64,000 bases of DNA from Pseudomonadales bacterium (GTDB lineage: Bacteria; Pseudomonadota; Gammaproteobacteria; Pseudomonadales; Pseudohongiellaceae), in assembly GCA_012103535.1 (NCBI GenBank), contig WLWQ01000001.1, forward strand, positions 1,054,001-1,118,000. The letters are read 5' to 3'. Made by a program: the position numbers and the translations under genes. The notes under the pieces were generated by a model, which saw nothing but the letters and a program-made list of their open reading frames with translations, was not told the DNA's origin and ran no database searches. Within the stretch, counting starts at the first letter, position 1; each line of letters opens with the position of its first letter. Shown here piece by piece: positions 22,444 through 28,529 of this stretch.

Positions 22444-23212
22444 TTAGCGTAACAATGACTGAATTTCGTCTGGAACCGCAAAATTAGCATCGGTTGCAGT
22501 ATCGAATACTACGCTGTCTATCGCTATAGTAAATTCCTGACCAGCCTGACTTATGGTCATCAAAGTTGGCTGCATGTAGCCATCAAAATCCTGATAATTA
22601 TCCAGGTAGGTTGATATTGGCAATTCACCAAGCGGTGTTGATGCAGTCGCATCTGACCTTACGAGATAATTCGACTCGACATCAAAATACAGATAGGTAT
22701 TTTTACCGCGATCATCGGTGAGTCTTACCTTGTAGGCGTCACTACCTAGATTCTCGACAATCTCTTCGGTAACCAAACCAGGACTCAATCCCAGATTCAA
22801 CGGTAAGTAATAATCAGACTGCTGCACTAAATCTGTGAGCGTGTCACCTTCCAGCAGGGAGTTCCCCTGCAAGGGATCGACAGTCCAGCCAATGTCGCCG
22901 TTATAGCCATTCTCGATTGTCCCGAATCCACCGAGCTCGATCGTTTGAGCTACGTGATTGGGTGCTCGGGAATGGATGGTGGCGGCGCCTTCGAGGCCAA
23001 AAGCGTCCATTTATCGTGGTGGACGAGTAGGAGCGAATGACATCTTCGCCACCTATCGCGTCAACGTATCGGGCAAATATCGCCCGTGGAGTCAGCAGTC
23101 CGTTCGCACCTACTTCGTTGCGATAATCCGGGCCTGTTGATGTCGTTGTCGCACAGCCGACTATGAATACCATTAAGCTGACGATGCTGAACGTACGAAT
23201 AAAGAATTTCAT
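22444..23212 (-). pseudogene. frameshifted lipoprotein gene
   Basis: The 5' part (from 23212) encodes a lipoprotein (lipobox IVGC, Cys20) with ARYVDAIGGEDVIRSYSSTTINGR near residues 45-70, and then runs out of frame. The 3' part (22444-about 23010) continues in the frame one base over, starting at DAFGLEGAATIHSRAPNH, and completes a beta-rich outer-membrane-lipoprotein-like fold (GTIENGYNGDIGWTVDPLQG, DRGKNTYLYFDVESNYLVRSD). One extra base, or two missing bases, near 23010 would restore a protein of about 255 residues. It is either a real frameshift or a sequence error; the rest of the protein is undamaged. Confidence 0.75.
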
Positions 23213-24233: not shown

Positions 24234-24358
24234 GGCGAAATCTCTGCAGGAAATACCTTCTACTCTATATGGGCCCCTAAAATCCTAAATTCAACTGTTT
24301 GACCCTAGGTTAGAACGGTTAGCTGAGCTATGCTTTGCCCAAAGTGAGGAATTCAATC

Positions 24359-25480
24359 ATGTTGAATAGACGCCAGTTGTTGCAGTCAATGGCAACTCTT
24401 CCACTGCTTGCGAGTTGCAACCTTGCAGTTCAAGGTGGTTCCCGAAATTACACTCCCTCTGGCCTGCCTTTGCGCCGGGTCGATGTGTCTGATGATCGAG
24501 TAATTCGAACGATAGCCGGACTTCGCCCTTATCGCTCGAAGGGATTTAACGTCAGTGCCGAGCGCATGAATGACAAGGTTGTAATTCATAATTACGGACA
24601 CGGTGGCGGTGGGATTACGCTCTCCTGGGGTACCTCTCACCTGGCGATGGAATTGGCTACCCAAACTCAACACCGACGCTGTGCAGTTTTGGGTGCAGGT
24701 GCAGCGGGACTTTCTGCTGCCAGGCTTATGCAGAACGCCGGCTGGGATGTCACGATCTACTCGAAAGATTTATCTCCTAACACCACTTCCAATGTTGCTG
24801 GGGGCCAATGGTCTCCTACTTCTGTTTATAGCGAAGATTCGGTATCACCTGCGTTCCATGATCAGTTTGAATCAGCAATGCGCCATGCCTATCGCTACTA
24901 CCAGAACTTAGTAGGCCCTAAATACGGTGTGCGCTGGATTAGCAATTACATGGTATTAAACCAACCAGAAGCTGACGACTCACTCTCGGCAACCTATCAG
25001 GATATGTATCCCCAGCGAATGCGTTTATCCCCATCCGAGCATCCTTTCGATGCCGAGCATGTTTTGCACATCGATACCATGCTCATTGAACCGGCTGTTT
25101 ATTTACCGGCAATGATGAACGATTTTCAGATTGCTGGTGGAGATATCGTTATCAAAGAATTCAGAGACCGCGGCGAAGTACTGCAACTCGATGAACCGGT
25201 AATCATTAACTGTACGGGTTTAGGTTCCCGCCAGCTTTTCAATGACAATGATCTTATCCCAATCAAGGGGCAGCTCACCTTTTTATTACCGCAAGAAGAA
25301 GTGGATTACATCATCATAGGCAATGGTGGACTTTATATGTTTCCCCGCAGTGATGGCATCCTGTTAGGCGGCACTTACGAGAGAAACCAATGGGATCCGA
25401 CCCCGGACCCTGAAGCGACCCGCCGCATAATCGATGGTCATCGGGCATTCTTTAATGCAATGGAGGATCCCTGGGCATGA
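24359..25480 (+). CDS. exported D-amino-acid-oxidase-like FAD protein with permuted motif order
   Basis: ATG 24359 (GAGGA ribosome site) gives 373 residues. The N-terminus has twin Arg (RRQLL) and a lipobox-like LASC (Cys20). Next come GLRPYR (54-59) and VIHNYGHGGGG (75-85), which in D-amino-acid oxidases form the C-terminal end (carboxylate-binding Arg and FAD loop). Only after these is the dinucleotide motif LGAGAAGLSAARL (111-123), with NTTSNVAGGQWSP and GGTYERNQWD later at the C-terminus. The order is thus rotated relative to known enzymes, whose chain ends meet in the fold. It probably oxidises D-amino or imino acids outside the cytoplasm. Its stop overlaps the next start by 4 bp. Confidence 0.8.
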   Translation: MLNRRQLLQSMATLPLLASCNLAVQGGSRNYTPSGLPLRRVDVSDDRVIRTIAGLRPYRSKGFNVSAERMNDKVVIHNYGHGGGGITLSWGTSHLAMELATQTQHRRCAVLGAGAAGLSAARLMQNAGWDVTIYSKDLSPNTTSNVAGGQWSPTSVYSEDSVSPAFHDQFESAMRHAYRYYQNLVGPKYGVRWISNYMVLNQPEADDSLSATYQDMYPQRMRLSPSEHPFDAEHVLHIDTMLIEPAVYLPAMMNDFQIAGGDIVIKEFRDRGEVLQLDEPVIINCTGLGSRQLFNDNDLIPIKGQLTFLLPQEEVDYIIIGNGGLYMFPRSDGILLGGTYERNQWDPTPDPEATRRIIDGHRAFFNAMEDPWA

Positions 25481-26085
25481 AAGCAACTTTAGGAGTTGCT
25501 CTCATTTTCGTGTTAACAATTCCGAAGTTTGCGATTGCACAAGATGATGAGCAAGCGGAAATTGAACAGACCGAAGCCGAACAAGTTGAAGCAGATGAAA
25601 ACGCTCGGCCTATAGAGCAGATTGACATTGTTGGCGAAAGATCGCTGGTGGGAATGCGTTATCAGATAAGAATCGCTGAAAGCACTCTCTACAATTTGTT
25701 CAACGAGTTGAACAAAGTTGAGAAATATCACATTCGCTGCCGCAATATCCGCCGCACCGGTACCTATATTCCAACACGAAGCTGTGAACCAAAGTTTTAT
25801 AAAGATTTCAGGCAAGAGGCAGCTCGCTTTGGACTATCTGAAATGCGTTCTGCGTTTAACAATGGCGGATTCGATCAAGCTATATTTCAACGAGGTCTTG
25901 ATCTGCTGGAACCCGAAAGCGAATTACGAGCTCAAGTAGTTGGCGATTATGAAGGCATGCAACAGGAAATGTTTCGAATAGCTACTGAGAACGAAGATTA
26001 TCTCCAACAACTGTTACGAGTTGGCGAACTCAAATCAGAATACGATGCGGCAAGAGCAGAACGCTTTGGTAAGACTGAAGACTAG
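25477..26085 (+). CDS. exported hypothetical protein, coupled to the FAD oxidase
   Basis: The 202-residue product has a signal peptide (about 1-22, ending AIAQ), an acidic repeat (EQAEIEQTEAEQVEADE, about 26-42) and then a helical domain with three Cys-containing turns (HIRCRNIRRTGTYIPTRSCEPKF). The start overlaps the oxidase stop (ATGA), so the two are translationally coupled and may work together. The 3' end is abrupt: its stop codon lies within the CTAG flanking the MITE-like element at 26086. Family unknown. Confidence 0.65.
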   Translation: MKATLGVALIFVLTIPKFAIAQDDEQAEIEQTEAEQVEADENARPIEQIDIVGERSLVGMRYQIRIAESTLYNLFNELNKVEKYHIRCRNIRRTGTYIPTRSCEPKFYKDFRQEAARFGLSEMRSAFNNGGFDQAIFQRGLDLLEPESELRAQVVGDYEGMQQEMFRIATENEDYLQQLLRVGELKSEYDAARAERFGKTED

Positions 26086-27161: not shown

Positions 27162-28529
27162 ATGAAGCTCCCTACTAAGCCCCTATTTACCGCCCTCGCA
27201 GGCATATTCGCAGCAGGCGCATTTTCTGCCGTAAATGCTCAGGGCGAAGCGCCGTCTTTTTACGCTGATGCCCTGCCAGTTTTTCAGAAAAACTGTGTTG
27301 CCTGTCACCAGGATAATCCACCTGATGTTGGCGGAATTTTCGCGCCAATGGCTCTGGATAACTATGAGCAGGCGAAAATCTGGGCGCCGGTTATTAAGAA
27401 CGCGTTGCTTACCAATTACATGCCACCCTGGGGTGCCCACGAACGTCACCGCGGTGAATTCAAGGGCGAGCGCTATATGGATCAGCAAGAGAAAGATCTA
27501 TTGGTCGCCTGGGTAGATTCCGGTGCAATAGAAGGAGATCCTTCTGATGCCTCTAGTGGTGCTTCCTTGGTTGCCAATGGTGCTGGCACCACGCTTCCAC
27601 CATCAGGTTGGTGGATTGGCGATCCTGATCTAGTCGTGCAGTTCGAACAAGAGGTGTACGTACCAGACGAAGTCATGGATTGGCAGCCAACTATTCAAAT
27701 GCCTGTTCCAGAAGGTGCCCATGAAAATCCTGCCTGGATTTCCAGAGCAGAGCTCGATCCGGGCGGCCCCTGGGTTCATCACATCGTTTCCAGTCACATG
27801 GGTGTAGGTGTTCCAGGTCGTGGACCTTTTACCTATCCGGAAGGCTGGGGCGTATTACTGCCGGAAGATCCATTCATTACAGTAAATATGCACTACCATA
27901 AGGATCCGGGCGAAGGCACTGCGGTCAATGACCTGACACGCGCCGGATTTAAGTTTTACGAAGAAGGCGATGTTATCGACCACGTGGTTGAAACCAATCT
28001 GCTGCCTCACCGTGGTTGGACAATTCCTGCCGGTGATCCTAATTACGAAGTGAATAACACCTACGCTATTGAAGAAGATATCTTTCTTCTTTCAATGGGT
28101 CCCCACATGCACTATCGCGGCAAAGCCATGCGCTATGAATTGGAATACCCCGATGGCGAAAAAGAAGTTCTGCTCTGGGTACCTGATTATGATTTCAATT
28201 GGCAGTTTCTCTATGAATATGAAACACCAAAATTCATCCCTGCTGGATCGACTATGCACATGAGCTGGTGGTTCGATAATTCAGAGGGCAATCGATTTAA
28301 CCCTGATCCAACCCAGGATGTCGTATACGGTGCAGCTACTACTGATGAAATGGCCAATGCCCGCATTTACTACGCACCGACTACGCCGCGCGGAATCGTA
28401 GTAGGCGATCCAATTCCTCAAGATGTAATCAAGACAGCGCAGGAAGAAGATGCGCGTCGCCGCGAATTTTCACGCTTGTTCGATCCGACAGCTGATGACT
28501 TTTCCTGGTTAGAAGAAGATAGCCCGTAA
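27162..28529 (+). CDS. cytochrome c fused to copper type II monooxygenase-like domain
   Basis: The 455-residue exported protein (signal about 1-26) starts with a single-heme domain (CVACH, 45-49; a Met in NYMPPWG near 87 may be the distal ligand). It then has a two-part domain resembling PHM/DBH-type copper monooxygenases: WVHHIV (His206-207), MHYH (243-246), PHMHYRG (314-320), MHMSWWFDNS (365-374) and a C-terminal DEM. The conserved His/Met pattern fits two copper sites. A heme fused to this fold could deliver or accept electrons. It is followed 27 bp later by a secreted hypothetical gene. Confidence 0.75.
   Translation: MKLPTKPLFTALAGIFAAGAFSAVNAQGEAPSFYADALPVFQKNCVACHQDNPPDVGGIFAPMALDNYEQAKIWAPVIKNALLTNYMPPWGAHERHRGEFKGERYMDQQEKDLLVAWVDSGAIEGDPSDASSGASLVANGAGTTLPPSGWWIGDPDLVVQFEQEVYVPDEVMDWQPTIQMPVPEGAHENPAWISRAELDPGGPWVHHIVSSHMGVGVPGRGPFTYPEGWGVLLPEDPFITVNMHYHKDPGEGTAVNDLTRAGFKFYEEGDVIDHVVETNLLPHRGWTIPAGDPNYEVNNTYAIEEDIFLLSMGPHMHYRGKAMRYELEYPDGEKEVLLWVPDYDFNWQFLYEYETPKFIPAGSTMHMSWWFDNSEGNRFNPDPTQDVVYGAATTDEMANARIYYAPTTPRGIVVGDPIPQDVIKTAQEEDARRREFSRLFDPTADDFSWLEEDSP

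Follow-up and report, generated by a model that had tools for sequence, protein, structure and literature searches.

A sequence-level circular permutation of the D-amino-acid oxidase family with a predicted export leader in a Pseudomonadales bacterium

The gene and the order of its parts

We analysed a 64,000-nucleotide stretch of DNA (hereafter the window) from a Pseudomonadales bacterium of the Pseudohongiellaceae (GenBank assembly GCA_012103535.1, contig WLWQ01000001.1, positions 1,054,001 to 1,118,000 of the forward strand). An open reading frame (ORF) in the window, matched by the Pfam DAO family (24359..25480; all features are on the forward strand unless marked otherwise), encodes a 373-residue flavoprotein that resembles D-amino-acid oxidase (DAAO) and D-aspartate oxidase (DASPO), with its parts in a circularly permuted order. 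A putative ribosome-binding site, GAGG (24346..24349), lies 9 nucleotides 5′ of the ATG at 24359. DAAO is a textbook flavoenzyme, used in sensing and biocatalysis. Canonical members of the family carry the GFRP.R and HNYGHGG.G segments after the GxGxxG motif. Here both precede it, and the protein was therefore filed with a permuted branch rather than as a canonical member.

An earlier note, made by a model from the sequence alone, had placed three motifs in the translation, and all three occur exactly there: GLRPYR at residues 54-59, VIHNYGHGGGG at 75-85 and GAGAAG at 112-117. GLRPYR (24518..24535) aligns as the equivalent of GFRP.R, HNYGHGGGG occupies residues 77-85 (24587..24613), and GAGAAG (24692..24709) is the dinucleotide-binding motif. 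Profile searches and a rotation scan delimit an N-terminal segment, residues 46-104 (24494..24670), which is the counterpart of the C-terminal segment in canonical DAAO/DASPO, followed by a core, residues 105-373 (24671..25477), whose counterpart in sequence searches and structure matches is the first 260-270 residues of canonical DAAO. The core includes Tyr326 (25334..25336), placed by alignment, and, in an AlphaFold2 model, a helix at the new C-terminus (residues 351-366; 25409..25456), which is the last element before the cut. Ahead of both parts lies a predicted leader (24359..24418) with arginines at residues 4-5, a hydrophobic stretch and Cys20 in a lipobox-like LASC; these are the elements of the Tat/lipoprotein-type leader described in the earlier note.

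Pfam DAO (PF01266) matched the protein in two stretches (124 bits, E = 1.4e-35, cut-off 27.9), the best of which (residues 108-368 on profile positions 2-300 of 353) is the core alone. The same family was matched at E ≤ 0.001 in 68 of 68 aligned relatives. None of the 25 NCBIfam models listed out of 70 reached its cut-off, including glycine oxidase ThiO (TIGR02352; 63.4 versus 250.8 bits) and two models of D-amino acid dehydrogenase DadA (NF009074, 29.5 versus 494 bits; NF001933, 22.9 versus 383).

Sequence and structure evidence for the rotation

The earlier note had read the protein as a rotated DAAO sequence, and this is borne out by pairwise, profile and rotation-scan tests, by a structure model and by 149 relatives with the same order. 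Using phmmer, the best match in the PDB was human DASPO (6rkf, E = 2.4e-32), in two swapped stretches: residues 106-359 aligned with positions 13-265 of the chain (independent E = 1.6e-23), and residues 49-105 with positions 280-339 (independent E = 2e-05). With a profile of 68 sequences, these stretches strengthened to 2.3e-35 and 1.5e-10, and two stretches were found in 16 of the 17 DAAO/DASPO sequences listed, the order being read from five alignments. A profile of the N-terminal piece (60 sequences) returned 17 distinct PDB matches at E ≤ 0.01; all 17 were DAAO/DASPO, and all lay near the C-terminal end of the chain.

For the rotation scan, the start of the leaderless protein was shifted every sixth residue and each version was scored by a profile of 26 canonical-order relatives. 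The native order scored 166.5 bits over profile positions 3-257 of 316, and the score peaked with the start at residue 106, at 215.7 bits over positions 6-314 in one domain. The only other single-domain rotations were those with the adjoining starts 100 and 112; some further cut points (183.6 and 185.9 bits, for example) also outscored the native version, none as one domain. As a control, four canonical proteins, themselves members of the profile, dropped from 394-417 to 287-299 bits when permuted likewise. Rotation raised the score in all 149 permuted relatives, with a median gain of 62.6 bits and a smallest gain of 29.4. The two segments are thus both homologous to the canonical protein, present in single copy and exchanged in order, and they give one continuous match once rotated. 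Mean column identity is 63% in the N-terminal segment versus 42% in the whole protein. At the level of sequence, the window protein is a circular permutation of the DAAO/DASPO family.

The AlphaFold2 model of the protein is confident, with a predicted local distance difference test (pLDDT) score of 94 and a predicted template modelling (pTM) score of 0.89. Its closest solved folds are DAAO/DASPO, and its core (residues 102-373) shares the DAAO fold with these solved structures; order-preserving structure alignments cover the core alone. Residues 46-104 agree with the canonical C-terminal segment in sequence and in predicted secondary structure. One detail of the earlier note did not hold: it had the chain end with the strand that precedes GFRP, whereas the model ends in helix 351-366, and the strand leading into GLRPYR (residues 48-59) lies on the N-terminal side. 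Helix 351-366 aligns with the DASPO region directly before the GLRP strand of DASPO. The canonical C-terminal segment (GFRP strand, HNYGHGG loop and last helix) would have been relocated to the N-terminus and linked to the first FAD-binding strand through a turn of about six residues, the new chain ends presumably separating the GFRP strand from the helix that follows the GGT strand.

Distribution, leader and origin of the permuted branch

We pooled loci carrying related proteins, dropping ORFs whose core scored below 40 bits and merging identical cores, which reduced 215 ORFs to 175 distinct ones. Of these, 149 are permuted, 26 are canonical and none carries the segment at both ends; the ratio of 149 to 26 is not a census, as the permuted protein or its alignment served as the query that brought in most of the loci. 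A database search for the same N-terminal order, which the earlier note had proposed, thus finds it in 149 distinct relatives across several phyla. In a scan of genome contigs, the best 80 of 578 confirmed loci all matched the window protein in rotated order, one of them cut by a contig end. Among the strain or complete-genome records in which the rotated order occurs are Luteolibacter pohnpeiensis, Ekhidna lutea, Dokdonella fugitiva, Sphingomonas sp. 7/4-4, Nonomuraea gerenzanensis and a Rhizobium plasmid. An assembly misjoin, which the earlier note had named as grounds for dismissal, is excluded by open frames with the rotated order in the 149 relatives, isolates included. The plasmid relatives, where annotated, are called merely ‘FAD-dependent oxidoreductase’, and phage records gave no match.

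Within its own genus, 28 of 37 genomes matched the window protein at E ≤ 1e-90, as did none of the 21 genomes from the rest of the order, one of which gave a match at 1.6e-14 that is likewise permuted. Across its own phylum, 15 of 299 sampled genomes matched at E ≤ 1e-20, each time in permuted order. Sampling the phylum of a Gemmatimonadota genome gave matches at E ≤ 1e-15 in 33 of 150 genomes; 30 are continuous and permuted, as judged by match ranges (28 of 148 once the two previously known carriers, G354 and G359, are removed), and the remaining three are fragments or core only. The phylum of an Acidobacteriota genome gave 16 of 149, of which 10 are permuted (one being the sample centre) and 6 canonical, and that of Ekhidna (Bacteroidota) gave 18 of 198, of which 3 are permuted (one being the sample centre) and 15 canonical. 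When a canonical Streptomyces protein was used as the query on the phylum of the window protein, 8 of 299 genomes matched at E ≤ 1e-15, and every one of these places is also found with the permuted query. One genome of the Acidobacteriota sample (G404) has four permuted DAAO-like matches (L165, L183, L184 and L185).

The leader recurs across the permuted relatives. A twin arginine followed by a lipobox was found in 118 of 149 permuted versus 0 of 26 canonical relatives, counted as a pattern on the open frame upstream and not with a signal-peptide predictor. An earlier, looser pattern of a twin arginine plus a hydrophobic stretch matched 144 of 149 permuted relatives, and 113 of 149 with the lipobox; some of its matches are chance ones upstream of the true start, as in the Rhizobium plasmid protein (L142). 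R4, R5 and C20 are each at least 90% conserved in the 68-sequence alignment, in which row starts were picked partly by the arginine pair. The genome of the window protein encodes TatC, so that a twin arginine, a hydrophobic stretch, a lipobox cysteine and the Tat system, the sequence features of a Tat-exported lipoprotein, are all found together. The window protein is probably exported by Tat and lipid-anchored, a prediction made from these features; it would fold with FAD in the cytoplasm before export and tethering as a lipoprotein. No leader is visible by eye in the Rhizobium plasmid protein or in that of Nonomuraea (L141), both of which are permuted and branch apart from the leadered majority. 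As these two are rotated without a visible leader, the rotation needs no export.

Other DAO enzymes are known to share the canonical order, and for this reason we took that order as ancestral. A careful, unrooted tree was built from 66 rows (40 of the 149 permuted relatives, 15 of them hand-picked and 25 random, plus all 26 canonical ones). A single branch sets the permuted rows apart from the canonical ones (support 71/60, recovered in 66% of bootstrap trees), and shuffling gave a mean of 20.7 changes of order. The rotation probably has a single origin, in which a canonical gene would have been duplicated and fused and would then have lost its outer ends. The duplicated intermediate that this route implies, with the segment at both ends, was found in none of the 175 distinct ORFs.

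Predicted role, alternative explanations and neighbourhood

By alignment, R56, Y326 and G83 of the window protein correspond to Arg283, Tyr228 and Gly313 of DAAO. R56 is conserved in 149 of 149 permuted and 26 of 26 canonical relatives, G83 in 148 of 149 and 26 of 26, and G112, G114 and G117 of GAGAAG in 149 of 149 and 26 of 26. Position 326 varies more among permuted relatives (Tyr in 94 of 149, His in 36 and other residues in 19) and is Tyr in 24 of 26 canonical ones. A Pseudomonadota subgroup is without the usual GGT motif. A passage of a published account of DAAO describes Arg283, Tyr228 and Gly313 as holding the substrate carboxylate and amino group (PMC6279847). Since the fold and all three residues are kept, the protein probably binds a D-amino acid or a closely related compound: Arg56, Tyr326 and Gly83 would hold the carboxylate and amino group of this substrate, hydride would pass from it to FAD, and the imino acid would then hydrolyse to a keto acid and ammonia, with either O2 or a carrier as the electron acceptor. 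The analysis shows the rotation of the sequence, its conservation, the predicted fold, the leader pattern and the TatC gene, whereas FAD binding, substrate, electron acceptor and export are inferred. The most likely role is D-amino-acid deamination outside the cytoplasm by a lipid-anchored FAD enzyme that Tat exports. As a separate observation, a subgroup may have switched substrate, as suggested by the 36 of 149 permuted relatives with His at the Tyr228 equivalent.

We consider it likely that the window protein is a DAAO/DASPO flavoenzyme that has undergone natural circular permutation, keeps the fold and active site and acts as an exported D-amino-acid-type enzyme. Several results weigh against this. 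The structure matches obtained all keep chain order. When the 68-residue N-terminal piece was modelled by itself, the model was poor (pLDDT 77.5, pTM 0.52) and had no Foldseek match at E ≤ 0.001. Support for one origin in the 66-row tree is only moderate, and a quick, unrooted tree of 175 rows requires two changes of order rather than one, apparently through a long-branch canonical row (L235) among the permuted ones. The replacement of the Tyr228 equivalent may mean that substrate chemistry differs in part of the family, and no recurrent D-amino-acid operon was found among 91 neighbours scanned with Pfam.

That order-preserving alignments see only the core is also what would be expected if the N-terminal segment were an additional, independent copy of the C-terminal DAAO motif that served some other purpose, beside a truncated catalytic domain. 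This is very improbable: the segment is the sole copy, with none of the 175 ORFs carrying it at both ends, it holds the invariant substrate arginine and the HNYGHGG loop, it is better conserved than the whole protein (63% versus 42% identity), and rotation gives one continuous, near-full-length match. That the order reflects an assembly misjoin or a spurious frameshift, or short motifs arranged by chance, has next to no probability; the origin of many relatives in metagenome-assembled genomes is the sole point in its favour, and open frames of the same order in 149 relatives, strain and complete-genome records among them, have already refuted it. If the permutation is accepted, its route could still differ from duplication, the halves having once been separate genes that were rejoined in the other order. 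The lack of any ORF with the segment at both ends among the 175 is as expected had no duplicated intermediate existed; however, no stand-alone core was found among them either, in a search not designed for separate halves, and the intermediates of either route may be extinct. We regard this fission and fusion as rather unlikely.

More weight, though short of even odds, goes to the possibility that the permuted fold is real and the enzyme no D-amino-acid oxidase: it would then be a dehydrogenase using FAD, or an oxidase acting on some other amine (imino acids, for instance, or D-residues in peptides or in fragments of the cell wall), and would pass electrons to a carrier and not to O2. The export-type leader pattern in 118 of 149 permuted relatives, the His in place of Tyr228 in 36, the Pseudomonadota subgroup without the usual GGT motif and the failure of the 25 NCBIfam models listed of 70 to reach a cut-off are consistent with it, as are scattered neighbours with peptidase, amidase and amino-acid permease matches (one or two proteins each). 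Against this, all three DAAO substrate-binding positions are kept in the window protein, and its nearest solved sequences and folds are DAAO/DASPO and not other DAO-family enzymes.

The window protein differs from characterized DASPO/DAAO (human 6rkf, pig 1kif, Rasamsonia 7ct4) in its rotated order, relocated termini and Tat/lipoprotein-type leader, and its activity is a prediction only. Canonical bacterial DAAO-like proteins (for example Streptomyces L140, L220-L231 of the Bacteroidota sample and L176-L182 of the Acidobacteriota sample) are homologous to it over near full length after rotation and share its conserved motifs, but have the usual order, and the arginine pair plus lipobox occurs in 0 of 26. 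ThiO and other PF01266 enzymes (MnmC, sarcosine oxidase, DadA) have the superfamily core in common with it, whereas the leaderless permuted relatives from Rhizobium and Nonomuraea share its rotated order and differ in having no export signal by eye. The window protein belongs to a circularly permuted, mostly leader-bearing branch of the DAAO/DASPO family, of which we found no description in the open-licence literature searched. A manual check of Pfam domains reported 54 cases of circular permutation (PMC4432964), which are unnamed in the passages concerned, and ‘oxidase’ and ‘DAO’ are absent from its main text; in a paper on a search for bacterial DAAOs (PMC9844085), ‘permut’, ‘N-terminal’, ‘signal’ and ‘rearrang’ do not occur.

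A widespread natural permutant would indicate that chain ends can be placed anew at a specific site without loss of the DAAO fold. Such a protein readily escapes notice, having no NCBIfam name, a best Pfam stretch confined to the core and generic annotation of its plasmid relatives. It also points to a common, apparently unstudied bacterial oxidation of amino compounds, perhaps D-amino acids, outside the cytoplasm. More tentatively, and with doubts outweighing confidence, we suggest an unnamed large family of extracytoplasmic flavoenzymes derived from one DAAO permutation, in which a surface N-terminus allowed a Tat lipid anchor and part of which switched substrate (Tyr228 to His). If so, the permutation would have moved the N-terminus from the buried first FAD strand to the surface and turned a cytosolic D-amino-acid oxidase into a surface-tethered one.

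Immediately downstream, an ORF of 202 residues with a signal-peptide-like start (25477..26085) overlaps the flavoprotein gene by ATGA, its start at 25477 meeting the stop at 25478-25480. It had no Pfam or NCBIfam match at E ≤ 1. The earlier note had called it a coupled hypothetical protein; the overlap is real as a local pairing, but the partner is not conserved across relatives. Among 20 loci of the same genus (L001-L020, two of them with less than 650 bp of downstream sequence), a clear downstream homologue was found in 5, including the window, and a weak one in 1; among 14 further loci, it was present in 1 (L060, which coincides with one of the 5) and absent in 13. The 202-residue protein is a local neighbour, not a family-wide partner. 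Its homologues form a multicopy family of small proteins that have no known domain (25477-26085, L035-L059). They occur throughout the genus of the window, to which all 31 carriers among the 58 genomes searched belong, often as several per genome and with up to 8 matches in one.

For the wider neighbourhood, a simple gene caller was run on 80 loci, of which 63 gave usable rows and 17 none. Length, strand and gap limits left 93 neighbours; 91 were scanned with Pfam (43 on the same strand, 48 on the opposite), two from L106 being left out. The commonest same-strand family was Proteasome (5 of 43, among the first 25 of 74 families), and the commonest opposite-strand families reached 3 of 48 each (among the first 25 of 65). 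We rejected the neighbourhood as a clue to function: no family recurs enough for an operon, and the substrate is not settled by it.

Two further features of the window stand apart from the flavoprotein. On the reverse strand (22444-23212, −), overlapping ORFs in different frames, of 103 residues with a lipoprotein-like start and then of 188 residues, resemble one exported protein split by a frameshift, with no Pfam match to the second ORF. At 27162-28529, one chain carries cytochrome c-type and copper type II monooxygenase C-terminal domain matches, all below the Pfam cut-offs. Elsewhere, on the Rhizobium plasmid (L142, 2491-6717), the leaderless permuted relative lies in an operon-like arrangement between an FAD-binding oxidoreductase and a thiamine-pyrophosphate-binding protein.
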